Shown here in pieces: positions 8,390-16,004 of a stretch of DNA of 64,000 bases. A model generated the notes under the pieces. That model did no database searches. It was not told where the DNA came from and was given only the letters and a program-made list of their open reading frames with translations. The stretch's first letter is position 1. Each line of letters starts with the position of its first letter. This DNA is from an uncultured Marinoscillum sp. (GTDB lineage Bacteria; Bacteroidota; Bacteroidia; Cytophagales; MED-G16), in NCBI GenBank assembly GCA_902626505.1, contig CACOFQ010000003.1, positions 1 through 64,000 on the forward strand. The letters are read 5' to 3'. The position numbers and the translations under genes were made by a program.

Positions 8390-9180
8390 GCTTAAGAAAC
8401 TTTAAAATTTACAGAGGAGATGACGAAAGAGGTGAATTGGTAAGTTATCAGTGTGAGGTAACTGAGGGAATGGTAGTTTTAGACGTTATTCATAGAATTC
8501 AAGCAGATCAAGCAAATGATCTCGCTTGTAGATGGAACTGTAAAGCTGGAAAATGTGGCTCATGCAGTATAGAAATTAACGGTAAGCCAAGACTCGGGTG
8601 TATGACTAGAATGAATGAATTTGAGGAAGATAAAACAATTGTAATTACTCCATTAAAATCATTCCCTGTAATTAAAGACATTGTAACTGATGTTTCGTGG
8701 AATTATAAACAGAATGAAGAAATCACTCCGTTCTCACCATCAGAAAAAAGTAAAAAGAAAGATTTTGTTATGATGCAAAAGGATGTTGAGAGAGTTCAAG
8801 AATTTAGAAAATGCATTGAGTGTTATCTATGCCAAAACATGTGTCATGTTATTAGAGATAATGAGGGGAAGAAAGATTTCTCTGGACCAAGATTTATGGC
8901 TAGGCTTGCTAGCCTAGAGATGCATCCTATGGATGAAGCAGATAGAATTGAGGATGTTAAAGAAAAACACGGTTCAGGAATGTGTAATATAACTAGATGC
9001 TGTACAGAAGTTTGTCCTGAAGAAATTCAAATTACAGATGATGCAATCATACCGCTAAAGGAAAGAGTTGTTGATAGGTTCTATGACCCTGTTATGATGT
9101 TATTTAGAAAAATATTTGATAAAAAAGAAAGACAAAAAACAAAGTCTAAAGTTTCATCTTTTCTAAAGATGTTTTTCTAG
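8386..9180 (+). CDS. sdhB: succinate dehydrogenase iron-sulfur subunit
   Basis: Electron-transfer subunit (264 aa) linking FAD in SdhA to the membrane subunit. The N-terminal plant-type ferredoxin domain has the [2Fe-2S] ligands CRWNCKAGKCGSC...C. The C-terminal domain has CIECYLCQNMC for [4Fe-4S] and CNITRCCTEVCPEEI, consistent with the second and third clusters. The start overlaps the sdhA stop by 4 bp, so translation is probably coupled. The last 35 bp are antisense to the end of the sugar transporter gene, and the terminator hairpin lies inside its final codons. Confidence 0.95.
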   Translation: MSLRNFKIYRGDDERGELVSYQCEVTEGMVVLDVIHRIQADQANDLACRWNCKAGKCGSCSIEINGKPRLGCMTRMNEFEEDKTIVITPLKSFPVIKDIVTDVSWNYKQNEEITPFSPSEKSKKKDFVMMQKDVERVQEFRKCIECYLCQNMCHVIRDNEGKKDFSGPRFMARLASLEMHPMDEADRIEDVKEKHGSGMCNITRCCTEVCPEEIQITDDAIIPLKERVVDRFYDPVMMLFRKIFDKKERQKTKSKVSSFLKMFF

Positions 9181-10459
9181 TCTCTGGCATCGTTCGATAG
9201 ACAAATATCAACTGAAATACCATCATCAATCCAAAGAAGAAAAAGATTAGTCCAGGATTATTTCCTAATAAATCTATAACATAAGGCGTAATAGCTGTAA
9301 TAATAGCTGCAAAAACCCAATGTATACCTGAACCAAAAGACTGACCTTTTGCTCTTACTGAATTAGGAAAAATTTCGGATATAAAAACCCAAATAACTGC
9401 TCCTTGACCTATAGCATGTGAAGCAACAAATAATAATATGAATGTTAATAGGATATTAGAATTTAGTTCTAGTAAAAAACACGAACCAATTGAAATAAGA
9501 CTAATAATATAACCAAATGAGCCAACATACATCAAAAACTTTCTCCCAAAACTATCGATAAGCCTTACACCTAACAATGTAAATAAAAGATTAATAAAAC
9601 CTATTGATATTGAGCTCATTAAAGAATCTGAAGTACCAAATCCTGCAGATTCTAAAATTTGAGGAGCATAATACAAAACAAAATTTATTCCTGAGAGCTG
9701 ATTAAAAAAGGAAATTAGAAAAGCTAGTTTTAATTGCGTAAAAAAAGGTTTTGAAAAAAGTGATTGATTATTATCATTAAATCCTTTTCTAATTTCTAGA
9801 ACTTTATTATCAACTCCTTTTCCATCATACATAATATTTAATATTTCTTTTGCCTTTTTATCTTTATTTACAAATAGAATAAGCCACCTTGGACTCTCTG
9901 GTATCTTAATTATTGAAAGGAGAAAAAATATAGAAGGTATTGCTTCAATTCCTAACATAAATCTCCAATCAATATCTCCTCCAAAACCTTGTAAAAGATA
10001 ATTTGAAAAATACGCTATTAAAATACCTAATACTATATTGAATTGATATAATGCTACTAGTCTTCCTCTATTTTCTTTATTTGATATCTCAGATATGTAA
10101 GTAGGTGAAGCTACGCTAGAAGCCCCTACTCCTAATCCACCAATAAATCTAAAAAATGAGAAAGAATATGGGTCCCACGCTAATGCAGATCCTACAGCGG
10201 AAACTAAAAAAAGTAATCCAATAACGACTAAAGTTTTTTTTCTTCCTAGTTTGTCACAAGGATATGATCCTAATAAGGCACCAATAACTGTTCCCCAAAG
10301 AGCCATTGACATTATAAAAACCCCATGAAATAAAGGTGAAGTATTCCATAACTCTCTAATTGGAAGGTTAGCTCCTGAAATAACTACAGTATCAAAACCA
10401 AATAAAAATCCTGATAATGCTACAGATATAGACCAGAAGAAAATTTTTTTGTTGTTCAT
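9146..10459 (-). CDS. MFS sugar porter family transporter
   Basis: Twelve-helix inner-membrane sugar transporter of 437 aa, probably a proton symporter. Family signatures are GFLFGFDTVVISGA at the N-terminus, the loop motif DKLGRKKTLV, the central PESPRWL, the GINFVLYYAPQIL substrate motif in helix 7, DSFGRKFLM, and PETRKTSLEKM at the end. The length is normal for the family. The substrate (glucose, xylose, galactose or similar) cannot be read from the sequence. It diverges from a ROK sugar kinase with only 39 bp between starts, suggesting joint uptake and phosphorylation. Confidence 0.9.
   Translation of the reverse strand: MNNKKIFFWSISVALSGFLFGFDTVVISGANLPIRELWNTSPLFHGVFIMSMALWGTVIGALLGSYPCDKLGRKKTLVVIGLLFLVSAVGSALAWDPYSFSFFRFIGGLGVGASSVASPTYISEISNKENRGRLVALYQFNIVLGILIAYFSNYLLQGFGGDIDWRFMLGIEAIPSIFFLLSIIKIPESPRWLILFVNKDKKAKEILNIMYDGKGVDNKVLEIRKGFNDNNQSLFSKPFFTQLKLAFLISFFNQLSGINFVLYYAPQILESAGFGTSDSLMSSISIGFINLLFTLLGVRLIDSFGRKFLMYVGSFGYIISLISIGSCFLLELNSNILLTFILLFVASHAIGQGAVIWVFISEIFPNSVRAKGQSFGSGIHWVFAAIITAITPYVIDLLGNNPGLIFFFFGLMMVFQLIFVYRTMPETRKTSLEKMKL
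9155..9176 (+). terminator. sdh operon terminator inside the sdhB 3' end
   Basis: catcttt - tct - aaagatg followed by ttttt makes a short hairpin with T-tail on the plus strand. It lies wholly within the last sdhB codons and is antisense to the end of the transporter gene. The stem is only 7 bp, so strength is uncertain. Confidence 0.55.
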
Positions 10460-10498
10460 AGAAACAATATTTTTACCAATATTAATTAAAAAAAACTA

Positions 10499-11389
10499 AT
10501 GTTATTAGGCATAGACTTGGGCGGCACAAAAATTGAGGGAATTGTTCTTGAATCTAAAGAGAACCCAAAAGAAATAATTAGACATAGGATTAATACAGAG
10601 GAAGAAAAAGGATATTCTCAAGTAATTAATAATATAAAATCATTAGTTGACTATATAGAAAAAAAAATTAATTATAATTTTGATAAACTTGGGATTGGAA
10701 CTCCTGGAACTATAGATCCTGAAACTGAATTACTCAAAAACTCTAATTCTCAATGCCTTAATAAAATGCCAATCCAAAAAGATTTAGCAAAAACACTAGA
10801 TAAAAATATTCTAATTCAAAATGATGCAAATTGTTTTGCACTCGCTGAGACTTTACTTGGTTCCGTTAAAGATCAATACCCTGATGCTAAGAATGTATTT
10901 GGTATTATCATGGGAACAGGAGTTGGTGGAGGAGTAATAATAGAGGGTAAAACAGTGTATGGAAGCCAAGGTATTGGTGGAGAATGGGGCCATACTATAG
11001 TTACTGATGATGGTGATGAATGTTATTGCGGTAAAAGCGGGTGTGTAGAATCAGTTATATCAGGTAGAGCACTACAAATTTATTATAACAAGATTTCTGG
11101 AAAGAAATTAAAATTTGAAGAAATATACGATCGAAGAGATAGTGATCCTTATGCTAAAGAGACCATGCAGAGATTGATAAATCACTTCGGTAAGGGTTTA
11201 AGTAATGTAGTAAATATACTTGACCCGGAAGTAATTGTTTTGGGTGGTGGTCTTAGTAATATTGATGAATTATATAATGAAGGTTATGATGAACTTAAAA
11301 AATATGTCTTCAATCCTACCTTTAAAACACCTATTTTAAGACCTAAACTTGGAGATAGCGCTGGAGTTTTTGGTGCTGCACTTTTATAA
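10499..11389 (+). CDS. ROK family sugar kinase (glucokinase-like)
   Basis: Cytoplasmic ATP-dependent hexose kinase of 296 aa. The N-terminal phosphate loop is GIDLGGTKIEGIVLE. The sugar-binding and catalytic region has NDANCFALAE, GTGVGGGVI and GEWGH. The zinc motif CYCGKSGC, together with the GEWGH His, is typical of ROK kinases without a DNA-binding domain. No helix-turn-helix is present, so this is not a NagC-type repressor. The divergent sugar transporter supports a role in trapping imported sugar. The stop lies 1 bp from the end of the convergent LamG gene. Confidence 0.9.
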   Translation: MLLGIDLGGTKIEGIVLESKENPKEIIRHRINTEEEKGYSQVINNIKSLVDYIEKKINYNFDKLGIGTPGTIDPETELLKNSNSQCLNKMPIQKDLAKTLDKNILIQNDANCFALAETLLGSVKDQYPDAKNVFGIIMGTGVGGGVIIEGKTVYGSQGIGGEWGHTIVTDDGDECYCGKSGCVESVISGRALQIYYNKISGKKLKFEEIYDRRDSDPYAKETMQRLINHFGKGLSNVVNILDPEVIVLGGGLSNIDELYNEGYDELKKYVFNPTFKTPILRPKLGDSAGVFGAALL

Positions 11390-11390
11390 T

Positions 11391-12194
11391 TTAATTTTCA
11401 TATCTTGATTTTGTAGCATTATAGTTTTGAGTTATTTCTTCCAAAGAAAGAGTTTTAGTATATAGATAAACTGCTCCAATTGAACCATTAAATGCTGATC
11501 CACCATCTCTCCAATCTTTTCCAATTAAAAAATTATCATGTCCATAATTTACATTTGTGTGTGCTGTAGCTGTTTCATCTAAAGAAGAATTAACATAATA
11601 TTTACCTGTTAAATTATTTTTTGTAAAGGTTATAAATTTCCAAGTATCATCATTAACAATTGTTTTAGATAGATTGTTTTTACTTCCATTAGTGTGAAAA
11701 CCATATTTTGGATTAGAATTTTTTGTTTTAAAATCCCAAAAACGAAACTCTCCATTTTCATCACTTGGAATATGTAAAATAAACTCATAATAATATCCAG
11801 TACTTCCTTTACTTCTTGAGAGAGATGCTAATAAACAGTTTTGATCTGTAGTCTTAATCCACATAGAAATAGTAATATTTGTTGATGACATATTATTTAG
11901 ATCACTATCTCTCTTGTAAAGATCATTATCAAAAACTAGAGATCCTCCCCAATTATCTGAGTAAACTACTGAACCTGAAAATTGAGATAAATCATTATTT
12001 GAACTGCTCAGATCATTCCATACTGATAAATCATTTGGATCTAAGGAATTTGGGTCAGATGCATCTAAATGAAGAATAAGATTATCATTAATAATTCCTG
12101 GCTTATGGTGGACAGCATGATATGAAGGTAAAATCTGAGAAAAACTATATTTTGATAAGAGTATTAAAAGAAAAAATAATAGATTGTACTTCAT
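11391..12194 (-). CDS. exported LamG/concanavalin-like domain protein
   Basis: Secreted protein of 267 aa with a signal peptide (MKYNLLFFLLILLSKYSFSQ) and one laminin-G-like jelly-roll domain. Indicators are LILHLDASD, SVWNDLSSSNNDLSQ, ITISMWIKTTDQ, GKYYVNSSLD and GSIGAVYLYTKTLSLEEITQNYN. Such domains usually bind glycans or calcium; there is no catalytic domain and no T9SS tail in the remaining length. The ATG at 12194 is needed for the signal peptide and overlaps the start codon of the divergent SGNH gene. The sugar-related neighbourhood hints at glycan binding, which is inference. Confidence 0.8.
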   Translation of the reverse strand: MKYNLLFFLLILLSKYSFSQILPSYHAVHHKPGIINDNLILHLDASDPNSLDPNDLSVWNDLSSSNNDLSQFSGSVVYSDNWGGSLVFDNDLYKRDSDLNNMSSTNITISMWIKTTDQNCLLASLSRSKGSTGYYYEFILHIPSDENGEFRFWDFKTKNSNPKYGFHTNGSKNNLSKTIVNDDTWKFITFTKNNLTGKYYVNSSLDETATAHTNVNYGHDNFLIGKDWRDGGSAFNGSIGAVYLYTKTLSLEEITQNYNATKSRYEN

Positions 12195-12858
12195 GAATAA
12201 TAAAAAATTAGTAATAACCTTATTCTTTAGTTTAATAAGCTTATATATGAACGGATCAAATATAGATTATCCAAAATTTGACACAAAAGAAAAAAAAATA
12301 ATTTTTTTTGGTAACTCTATAACTCAAAGTTGGAGTGACTACACAAAATTCTTTTCAGATAATGGATACGTAAATAAAGGTATCTCAGGACAAACAACTG
12401 ATCAGATGTTAGTGCGTTTCAAAAAAGATGTAGTTGATGAAAAAGCATACTGTGTCGTGATTTTAGCTGGAATCAATGATCTAGCAGAAAATAATGGTCC
12501 TGTAACATTAGAAGAGATATTTGAAAATATAAAGTCTATGGTAAAAATTGCAAATGATAATAGTATAAAAGTAATACTATCTTCTATCTTACCAGCATAT
12601 GAGTTTCTTTGGAATCCTGGAATTTATCCAAGTGACGATATTATTTTTCTCAATAAAAATTTAATAGATTTTTGTAAGTCTGGCAGTGCTATATATGTTG
12701 ATTACCATACCTCTATGAAAGATAAAAGAGATGGACTTAAAGATGAGTTTACTTACTGGAGAGATGATTTTAATGGATATGATGGGGTTCATCCCAATAA
12801 AAAGGGTTATTTAAAAATGGAAAAAATCATTTCCAAAACTCTAAAAAAGATACTCTAA
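12193..12858 (+). CDS. exported SGNH/GDSL hydrolase
   Basis: Periplasmic or secreted esterase-like hydrolase of 221 aa. I use the ATG at 12193; the track begins at an in-frame TTG at 12184. A signal peptide (MNNKKLVITLFFSLISLYMNG) precedes the conserved blocks: IIFFGNSITQSW (block I, nucleophile Ser), GISGQTTDQML (Gly block), ILAGINDLAENN (Asn block) and DGVHPNKKGY (catalytic Asp and His). The arrangement resembles platelet-activating-factor acetylhydrolase and carbohydrate esterase relatives, so deacylation of glycans or lipids is plausible. The stop overlaps that of the convergent VPS10 gene by 3-4 bp. Confidence 0.88.
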   Translation: MNNKKLVITLFFSLISLYMNGSNIDYPKFDTKEKKIIFFGNSITQSWSDYTKFFSDNGYVNKGISGQTTDQMLVRFKKDVVDEKAYCVVILAGINDLAENNGPVTLEEIFENIKSMVKIANDNSIKVILSSILPAYEFLWNPGIYPSDDIIFLNKNLIDFCKSGSAIYVDYHTSMKDKRDGLKDEFTYWRDDFNGYDGVHPNKKGYLKMEKIISKTLKKIL

Positions 12859-15800
12859 TCCCTTAACTCATTAAATGATTTTAGTACCTCCTCGTATTTT
12901 TCTTTAGAAATTTTATAAGTCATCTCATGAGTTTTAGTCGGTTTAGAGGTTGTGTTATATAGCTCCCAGCTCATATTACCTAATCTCCTTTGGACAGATG
13001 GTGGAGATCCTGAAAATACATCAGCATAGTTTAAACTTCTTGTTCCAGTTAGTATCATTTTTAGATCCATGATATCTCCTTTCTTTTTATTCAAATTCTC
13101 TAAATTTGTATCAGAAGATGAGTTAAGGGACTTATTAATTTCACCATCAATTTCTTCTATTGCTTGATCAATTTTATCAACAAGCTCATCTACATTCGTA
13201 AGTAACTTATCAAAATTTAACTGAAAACTAAAAAGTTTCTTTCTATCCTCTAGTGAAGATTTACTTCCTATTTGAATTACATCAAAAGAATAAGAATTCG
13301 TTAATTTTTCTATTTTATCATTCTCAAATTTTTCAAGATGAACACTATATTTCCCTGGAGGAACGAGAGGTCCAGAATAGTTATTTTCATCATCAATATT
13401 TCTCATTGAAAAAGTTCTTAAATCCCAATATTTTTCATGGTATCCTTTATTTTTATTTGAACTAATTCTTCTTACTACTTTTCCTTCACTATCTGATATA
13501 GTTAAATAAATTTTAGGTGATTTTTCCTTAGCTTCATCTTCTAACTTATCAGCAGTTGGATAATCAATTATCTCACCCCTATTAAATTTAAGAGATTCTT
13601 TATTTTGTCTTTCTTCAAACTTTGAGAGAATACTATTTCTTAAATAATAAGATAACTTTAATCCGTACGGAGGATTAGGGGAAGTAAAGAAGTTATGGCC
13701 TGTTGCAGTTTTTTCAGGTGCTGCAATAATGTACTGATGCGTTGATTTTACAGAGAATAAATGTGCAGACTTACTGTCAATTAAATTTGTATATTCTCTT
13801 ATCGGAGAGTAATCATCTACTATATAGAATCCTCTGCCAAAAGATGCAGCCACTAAATCATCTTCACCCTCATGAATTTCAAGATCTCTTATAGGAATTG
13901 TAGGTACTTTTTTAAACTTCCTCCAAGAAGATCCTGCGTCCATTGAAAAATACATTCCAAATTCAGTTCCAATAAAAAGAACATTAGGATTTATATGGTC
14001 TTCAACTACTGTCCACACAAAGTTATTCTCTGGAATATTAGAAGAAATAGATTTCCATGTCTTACCTCCATCTTTAGTTACAACTAGGTATGGTTTAAAA
14101 TCTCCATACTTATGGTAGTTAAATGAAACATATATGGTATTTAAATCATGTTTTGAAGTGATTACATCAGTAACATAAGCTTTTTGTGGAACTCCAGGAA
14201 AGTTCTGATGTTTCTCCCAGGTATTACCATTATCTCTACTTATTCTTACAAGTCCATCATCAGTTCCTACTACTAACAATCCTTGTTGTAATCTCGATTC
14301 ATCTAAAGCAACTATTGTTCCAAGAGGCGATGTGAAAACATTTTTAAATATTGCGTCAACACTCCAAACCTTACCCATTACCTTCATCTTGTTTCTATCT
14401 TCATTTCTTGTAAGATCTGGACTTATTTTTTTCCATGAATCACCATTATCATCACTCTGAAATAAGAAATTTGCAGCAAAATATAACCTATCAGAATTAT
14501 GAGGACTTATTATAAGAGGAGAATCCCAATTCCATCTTAAAGCGGCCTCCCCTTCTGCTGGCTGAGGCTGAATGCCAATTCTCTCGCCATTTGATTTATC
14601 ATACCTCATTATACCCGCATACTGTGACATCGTATAAAGGATATTTGGATCAGTAGGATCAACTCGAACCTGAAATCCATCTCCACCAGTTGTTACAAAC
14701 CAATCACTATTCCTTATACCTGACCTATTTTTGGTTCTAGATGGGCCACCAAAACTATCATTATCTTGAGTCCCTCCATAAACATTATAAAATGGCTTAT
14801 GATTATCGATACCAACTCTGTAGAGCTGAATAATCGGTAAATTATCTATAAATCTCCACGTTTTCATCCTGTCAAAACTCTCATAAATTCCCCCATCACA
14901 GCTGATCATGATATAATCAGGATCATTAGGATCAAAAAGAACATCATGACTATCTACATGTTTCTTATTTTCTGGAATTCTTTCAAACGTCTTTCCACCA
15001 TCTTCTGTGACATACGATCTCATATCTACAGAATAGACTTTATCAAATTGATGTGGGTCAGGAAAAATTTCAACATAATACTGAGAGTCTACCACCTGAT
15101 AATCACTCATCTTCATCCATGTCTCTCCATAATCATCTGATCTATAAAAACCTTTTGTTTTTTCTTTAGCAGTAATTAATGCATAGACAACATTTGATTT
15201 TTGGGGTGAAATTGCTAATCCAATTCTTCCAATATCACCACCTGGCAACCCATTTTTTAATTTTTTCCAAGTTTTTCCTCTATCTACAGATTTAAAAATA
15301 CCTCCTTCTGGCCCACCAGCAACCAAAATACCAAAATGTCTCCTTCTTTGGTATGTGCTTGCATACATGATATTATTATCATTATGATCCATTACTACAT
15401 CAGAAATTCCAGTATCATCTGTTACATGTAAAATTCTTTGCCATGTCTTCCCACCATCTTTAGTATTGTAAAGTCCTCTTTGACCACCAGACCTCCACAA
15501 TGGTCCTTGAGCAGCAACATAAATATTATCTGAATTGTCTGGATCAATAATAATTTTAGCAATATGTTCAGATGTTTTCAATCCCATGTGAGTCCATGTA
15601 TTTCCAGCGTCAATTGATTTATAAATTCCATCTCCAAATCCAACTGATCTTTGACTATTATTCTCACCTGTACCTAACCATAAAATTTTTGGATTTCTAG
15701 GATCCATAGAGATTGTACCTATAGAATAACTTCCATAATGTTCAAAAATTGGAATCCACGTAGTTCCTGAATTAGTTGTTTTCCATACATTTCCAGATGC

Positions 15801-16004
15801 AGTTGTTACATACCAGGTACTGGTATTAGAATAATCCTTAATAACTTTTGTTATTCTACCTGATACTTTTGCCGGTCCAATATTTCTAACAGGAATATTA
15901 TCAAATATTGATGTATTTATCTTTTCTTGTCCTTTTTTCTGGGAGAAAAGATCAAAAAACAAAAGTGATAATCCTAGGGTAAATAGTAAGTTTAATTTTT
16001 TCAT
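12855..16004 (-). CDS. exported BNR/VPS10-like beta-propeller protein, copy 1
   Basis: Large exported protein of 1049 aa with signal peptide (MKKLNLLFTLGLSLLFFDLFSQ). The N-terminal two thirds are built of sortilin/VPS10-type propeller blades with repeated Asp-box motifs such as SIDAGNTW, TKDGGKTW, SVDRGKTW, SDDNGDSW and SMDAGSSW. The C-terminal third has an FlgD/Ig-like segment (GKVVRRISSNKNKGYHEKYWDLR, LVPPGKYSVHLE) and then a helical, coiled-coil-prone stretch. Such proteins are often annotated as glycosyl hydrolases in Bacteroidota, but sialidase catalytic residues are not evident. A paralogue of nearly the same size lies at 37038-40154. Function unknown; extracellular binding or peptide processing are possibilities. 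Confidence 0.8.
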   Translation of the reverse strand: MKKLNLLFTLGLSLLFFDLFSQKKGQEKINTSIFDNIPVRNIGPAKVSGRITKVIKDYSNTSTWYVTTASGNVWKTTNSGTTWIPIFEHYGSYSIGTISMDPRNPKILWLGTGENNSQRSVGFGDGIYKSIDAGNTWTHMGLKTSEHIAKIIIDPDNSDNIYVAAQGPLWRSGGQRGLYNTKDGGKTWQRILHVTDDTGISDVVMDHNDNNIMYASTYQRRRHFGILVAGGPEGGIFKSVDRGKTWKKLKNGLPGGDIGRIGLAISPQKSNVVYALITAKEKTKGFYRSDDYGETWMKMSDYQVVDSQYYVEIFPDPHQFDKVYSVDMRSYVTEDGGKTFERIPENKKHVDSHDVLFDPNDPDYIMISCDGGIYESFDRMKTWRFIDNLPIIQLYRVGIDNHKPFYNVYGGTQDNDSFGGPSRTKNRSGIRNSDWFVTTGGDGFQVRVDPTDPNILYTMSQYAGIMRYDKSNGERIGIQPQPAEGEAALRWNWDSPLIISPHNSDRLYFAANFLFQSDDNGDSWKKISPDLTRNEDRNKMKVMGKVWSVDAIFKNVFTSPLGTIVALDESRLQQGLLVVGTDDGLVRISRDNGNTWEKHQNFPGVPQKAYVTDVITSKHDLNTIYVSFNYHKYGDFKPYLVVTKDGGKTWKSISSNIPENNFVWTVVEDHINPNVLFIGTEFGMYFSMDAGSSWRKFKKVPTIPIRDLEIHEGEDDLVAASFGRGFYIVDDYSPIREYTNLIDSKSAHLFSVKSTHQYIIAAPEKTATGHNFFTSPNPPYGLKLSYYLRNSILSKFEERQNKESLKFNRGEIIDYPTADKLEDEAKEKSPKIYLTISDSEGKVVRRISSNKNKGYHEKYWDLRTFSMRNIDDENNYSGPLVPPGKYSVHLEKFENDKIEKLTNSYSFDVIQIGSKSSLEDRKKLFSFQLNFDKLLTNVDELVDKIDQAIEEIDGEINKSLNSSSDTNLENLNKKKGDIMDLKMILTGTRSLNYADVFSGSPPSVQRRLGNMSWELYNTTSKPTKTHEMTYKISKEKYEEVLKSFNELRD

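Follow-up and report, generated by a model that had tools for sequence, protein, structure and literature searches.

Divergent genes with common start-codon bases in a marine Cytophagales genome, and candidate promoters inside their coding sequences

The window, a stretch of 64,000 nucleotides from an uncultured Marinoscillum sp., carries two divergent genes whose start codons both lie inside a single CATG. Read directly from the sequence, the minus-strand LamG gene starts with ATG at 12194-12192 and the plus-strand SGNH gene with ATG at 12193-12195; together the two codons make up the CATG, and they overlap by two bases (12193-12194), not four. The two coding sequences lie on opposite strands and have 5' bases in common, and they form a divergent overlapping gene pair. 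An earlier sequence-only reading of this DNA had placed both starts here, overlapping in CATG and with no intergenic DNA between the genes, and the open reading frames confirm it (spacing -2 nt). The LamG product belongs to the Laminin_G_3 family (PF13385, E=2e-18) and the SGNH product to Lipase_GDSL_2 (PF13472, E=7e-20). Relatives of the latter in the PDB are GDSL-like lipases/acylhydrolases (3p94, E=2.5e-52), and a sequence search for PDB relatives of LamG found none. Taken with the comparison of starts given below, the Pfam assignments indicate that both genes are real and that both starts are correct. The coordinates of the features are collected in Table 1.

Table 1. Genes, candidate promoter elements and predicted features around the LamG/SGNH junction (positions in the window).
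Feature	Positions	Strand	Basis or remark
ROK-family sugar kinase	10499-11389	+	Pfam; converges on LamG, 1 nt apart; read-through from it into SGNH is possible
LamG (Laminin_G_3) gene, 267 aa	11391-12194	-	ORF, Pfam; N-terminus MKYNLLFFLLILLSKYSFSQ resembles a signal peptide
Candidate -7 box of SGNH, TAGATTGT (TAnnTTGY)	12180-12187	+	Inside LamG codons 3-5, 5 nt before the ATG
CATG with both start codons	12192-12195		Identical in G011 and G009
SGNH/GDSL hydrolase gene, 221 aa	12193-12858	+	ORF, Pfam, PDB relatives; N-terminus hydrophobic
Predicted region transcribed from both strands, ~60 nt	12193-12252		Inferred from the two boxes
Candidate -7 box of LamG, TATATTTG	12257-12264	-	Inside SGNH codons 22-24
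Candidate -33 element of LamG, TTTG	12284-12287	-	19-nt spacer
BNR/Sortilin-Vps10 repeat protein	12855-16004	-	Pfam; converges on SGNH, overlapping it by 4 nt; synteny kept in the genus

The gene order MFS(-) ROK(+) LamG(-) SGNH(+) Sortilin/BNR(-) is retained in most of the genus. The surrounding 6.9 kb (9146-16004) are almost without intergenic DNA: an sdhB-like ORF ending at 9180 and the MFS gene converge with a 35-nt overlap, and the divergent MFS and ROK genes have 39 nt between them.

Conservation of the junction in close relatives, which the sequence-only reading had proposed as a check, was examined with a positive result. The 2-nt overlap, with the same CATG, is present in the window's genome (G000), G011 and G009. 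A 23-nt overlap is found in G010, G003 and G005, all of which carry a second SGNH type; there the SGNH ATG stands at the homologous position and the LamG start lies 22 nt deeper in SGNH, with MNVNKYFIL... antisense to MKYLLTFI.... In G003, LamG is interrupted by an in-frame TAA after about 40 codons, which points to either a decaying copy or a sequence error. LamG is deleted in G002, G006 and G004, with a stump of its 5' end remaining beside SGNH in the latter two, and it was not found adjoining SGNH in G007. In G012, of the related genus g2, SGNH stands 99 nt from a divergent LamG-like gene whose signal peptide and N-terminus (MKYYIIFLFLLTFNNLLSQISLPTFHGIQKP) resemble those of LamG, so that loss of the intergenic gap probably took place in the lineage leading to the window's genus. 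Among 80 SGNH relatives in the contigs of other genomes, none outside the genus had a LamG partner by sequence. Other apparent start overlaps among these relatives (e.g. L093, L106) were rejected as implausible alternative ORFs.

To see how rare such a junction is within the genome, base rates were taken from 1.24 Mb of G000 (a draft of 1.55 Mb in 60 contigs), gathered in stretches with a simple gene caller that sets starts roughly. LamG/SGNH is the sole credible overlap among the 148 divergent pairs called, whose median gap is 83 nt with longest-ATG starts and 144 nt with codon-scored starts. None of the 148 overlaps when the codon-scored starts, which delimit the coding cores, are used, and the smallest gaps are then 31-42 nt. 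The overlapping pairs number five under longest-ATG starts, LamG/SGNH and four others, and these four depend on starts that leave 40 nt or more between the coding cores. Since the other divergent pairs of the genome keep at least 30 nt between coding cores, LamG/SGNH is an exception. In 400 kb of the congener G010, no pair but the one at this locus overlaps by both start definitions (-23 nt). Divergent is the rarest type of overlap because both promoters must fit somewhere. Published surveys found it strongly under-represented, with 331 divergent against 12,737 co-directional overlaps (PMC2174442), or 1% of overlaps, every one longer than 60 bp being a start error (PMC2478687). The 331 pairs came from 58 genomes and 57 of them were shorter than 5 nt (PMC2174442, PMC2478687), and the overlaps of 2 and 23 nt described here fall within the credible size range.

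Candidate promoters were found for both genes. The -7 element of Bacteroidota is TAnnTTTG at -12 to -5, with a mean leader of 33 nt in F. johnsoniae (PMC6847099); in F. psychrophilum a second motif, TAnnTTGY, occupies the same position and 5.5% of mapped mRNAs are leaderless (PMC9723704). The SGNH box predicts a transcription start at 12192-12193 and a leaderless mRNA (leader of 0-1 nt). It stands exactly 5 nt before the ATG (-13 to -6) in 8 of the 10 genomes examined and is the sole TAnnTTTG or TAnnTTGY on the sense strand within 260 nt upstream. Four of the five genomes with the first SGNH type have TAGATTGT; all four second-type genomes have TAnnTTTG (TAGATTTG twice, TAAATTTG and TAGTTTTG), in which the fixed letters are constant and nn varies. 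The box is retained in G004 and G006 despite the deletion of most of LamG. It is absent in G002, which lost LamG and has SGNH 27 nt behind ROK on the same strand, and in G007, where neither LamG nor ROK is beside SGNH in the stretch read.

The spacing of the SGNH box recurs genome-wide. Upstream of 441 first genes of G000, TAnnTTTG occurs 3-6 nt before the ATG 21 times against 2.8 expected (Poisson p 3e-12) and TAnnTTGY 8 times against 2.3 (p 0.003); in G010 the count for TAnnTTTG is 8 against 1.7. Genes with TAnnTTTG at this spacing include those which we take, from their N-termini, to be purB, tsaD, trpS, purH, uppS, guaA, purD and ispF, and their starts are not in doubt because the N-termini are recognisable. 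From the enrichment we infer that this genome likely has a class of leaderless genes. Several points weigh against the SGNH box as a promoter: the window's genome has TAnnTTGY there and not the housekeeping TAnnTTTG, the enrichment of TAnnTTGY at this spacing is mild and, in G010, not significant, and no -33 element lies 19 nt before the box. TAGATTTG has a G at a place where F. johnsoniae almost never has one (PMC6847099). Since the box overlaps the Asn-Leu codons of LamG, protein constraint could also preserve part of it. A leadered SGNH promoter at TATATTTTG, with a leader of ~32 nt, was set aside for its non-consensus spacing. A scan for promoters of the sigma-70 type gave no clear excess (13 found against 10.6 expected in shuffles), and such promoters were rejected, the housekeeping sigma factor of Bacteroidota having another consensus (PMC6847099).

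For LamG, the sequence TTTG-N19-TATATTTG lies inside SGNH codons 22-32, 62 nt before the LamG ATG, in G000 and G011. It has the TTTG, the 19-nt spacer and the TAnnTTTG of a Bacteroidota housekeeping-sigma promoter, which makes it a candidate, and it predicts a transcription start at ~12252 and a leader of ~58 nt. G009 has TTG-N19 and the same box. The -33 element is gone in G006 and both elements are gone in G002, and LamG was lost in both genomes. Genome-wide, the spacer between TTTG and TAnnTTTG has its peak at exactly 19 nt (7 of 107, one of which may be the LamG candidate itself, and at most 2 at any other spacing). Against this promoter, CAAATATA in SGNH is also retained in G006, where LamG is lost. 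The genomes with the second SGNH type have no LamG box of either type common to all. LamG codons 1-20 are conserved at synonymous positions (42/45 identical vs 183/317 in the remainder of the gene), and for the pair G000/G011 the synonymous identity of 12/14 lies between the 90th and 95th percentile of gene 5' ends; this is suggestive only of selection on embedded promoters.

The sequence-only reading had put each promoter and each leader inside the partner gene and had the transcripts overlapping antisense at their 5' ends. The partner's coding sequence is indeed the best placement for both promoters, with read-through from the upstream ROK gene into SGNH as an alternative. The statement on leaders would hold only for LamG, since a box 5 nt before the SGNH ATG predicts a leaderless mRNA. 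An antisense overlap is probable, with ~60 nt predicted from the LamG leader over SGNH codons 1-20.

The pair truly overlaps, and we propose on this basis that SGNH would be transcribed from the -7-type element within the LamG signal-peptide codons into an mRNA translated without a leader. LamG would be transcribed from TTTG-N19-TATATTTG, its ~58-nt leader running antisense to the first ~20 SGNH codons. Mutual transcriptional hindrance would be expected because the two facing promoters would start transcription at sites ~60 bp apart, and transcription of one gene could hinder the other by occlusion, sitting-duck interference or polymerase collision. Facing promoters are expected to act on each other in these three ways, and close convergent ones generally interfere somewhat (PMC6593788). 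RNase III is encoded in the genome and could cleave the 60-nt duplex. As a result, a lectin-like protein and an esterase, both secreted, would be expressed inversely. We give this whole reading, embedded promoters, leaderless SGNH and mutual hindrance included, an even chance. A stronger version, in which the locus would be a conserved and very short excludon with each promoter in the signal-peptide or N-terminal codons of the partner, one partner leaderless, the two secreted proteins expressed alternatively and the sigma-factor motif of SGNH (TAnnTTTG or TAnnTTGY) differing between SGNH types, seems to us unlikely.

The main rival is a noncontiguous operon, in which SGNH would be transcribed mainly by read-through from ROK across the opposite-strand LamG, its own box being weak or unused. 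Such an arrangement is established (PMC7154746), the three genes are tightly packed (1 nt and -2 nt between them), and in the LamG-deleted G002 and G006 SGNH directly follows the ROK stop on the same strand, after 27 and ~44 nt. The unique box kept at its fixed distance before SGNH argues the other way, as do a weak terminator-like hairpin at the end of ROK (11356-11378) and G007, which is without ROK beside SGNH in the stretch read; we hold read-through as the main source rather doubtful. The SGNH start might also be mis-set. An in-frame TTG lies 9 nt upstream of the ATG at 12193, and the sole alternative start is M19 (ATG 12247), which would leave a 52-nt spacer and the hydrophobic stretch untranslated. 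M19 is conserved in 5/5 genomes with the window's SGNH type and is favoured by a start picker based on codon usage, a poor guide within signal peptides. In five genomes the reading frame runs uninterrupted through the 18 codons ahead of it, which remain hydrophobic, and the only indel there is one of 3 nt that keeps the frame. The homologous ATG of the second SGNH type begins a clear signal peptide (MKYLLTFIFIISSFLENFSQ), and the candidate SGNH box is phased to the ATG at 12193. A start at M19 is possible but quite unlikely.

The overlap could instead be a by-product of neutral compaction: real, with both promoters working and no regulatory interplay, the starts having drifted into the neighbour as the gap vanished. 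The genome is compact, 71 of the 152 convergent pairs in the sampled part of G000 overlapping, and in the related genus the gap of this divergent pair is still open. Divergent overlaps can originate through 5'-end elongation (PMC2716372), and no fixed coupling needs to be assumed since LamG was repeatedly lost. The coding cores of the other divergent pairs in this genome stayed apart, though, and convergent promoters so close generally interfere to a degree (PMC6593788). We rate compaction without regulation at somewhat under an even chance; it is compatible with the promoter model, and the confidences given here are not mutually exclusive.

The facing promoters pR and pL of coliphage 186 have a spacing similar to that predicted for the LamG/SGNH promoters. 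Transcriptional interference between convergent promoters has been studied with promoters of this phage (PMC6593788). Facing orientation and overlapping transcripts are predicted for our pair too, but its promoters would lie inside the coding sequences of ordinary chromosomal genes and form no lysogeny switch. An excludon is formed by the overlapping 5' UTRs of divergent genes (reviewed in PMC7154746), and here too the mRNA of one gene would run antisense to the 5' end of the other's. The 5' UTRs of classical excludons are long, whereas the overlap at LamG/SGNH, as predicted from the boxes alone, would be ~60 nt, with one leaderless partner. The menE-menC-MW1733-ytkD noncontiguous operon of S. 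aureus (PMC7154746) also has an opposite-strand gene between co-directional ones, as LamG lies between ROK and SGNH. The gene order here would fit co-transcription of ROK and SGNH, but SGNH has its own candidate promoter. The prokaryotic divergent overlapping pairs already published (PMC2174442, PMC2478687) are likewise opposite-strand genes with common 5' bases and overlapping start codons. Those, however, come from annotation surveys in which long cases had mis-set starts, whereas the LamG/SGNH starts were checked comparatively and the overlap was followed across a genus at two lengths.

LamG/SGNH is thus a well-conserved case of a known, under-represented class, rare and with unusually good comparative support. 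Long annotated divergent overlaps have been shown to be errors. In the present case the pair was checked by comparison, each gene has a candidate promoter, the overlap comes in two lengths, the gap in an outgroup measures 99 nt and one partner was deleted several times, so that how divergent genes can have start codons in common becomes a directly testable question. The likely leaderless class in this marine Cytophagales lineage, with a -7 box right before the ATG, should also help the annotation of starts in relatives.

The locus varies within the genus in other respects. SGNH types A and B are only ~58% identical (~42% sequence difference, loci L034-L041), while the flanking ROK is 81-87% identical to the window copy (difference <20%). 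Since SGNH is divergent where ROK is similar, the LamG/SGNH pair may have moved as a cassette; the contrast could come from cassette exchange or from fast evolution. The trees of ROK, SGNH and Sortilin are mutually discordant or poorly resolved, and the losses and gains of LamG were therefore left uncounted on a tree. The LamG of G009 looks mosaic: its signal peptide and first ~30 residues match G000, while its lectin domain matches G005, which suggests domain exchange. G009 also has a second, truncated SGNH copy at the start of a contig (C10:1-357), beside another Sortilin gene; it is 92% identical to the window protein and may come from strain mixture or duplication. Two contigs of G013 (C61 and C66) both break off at the LamG/SGNH junction, with one contig end lying in each of the two genes; strain variation at this point may be the reason.
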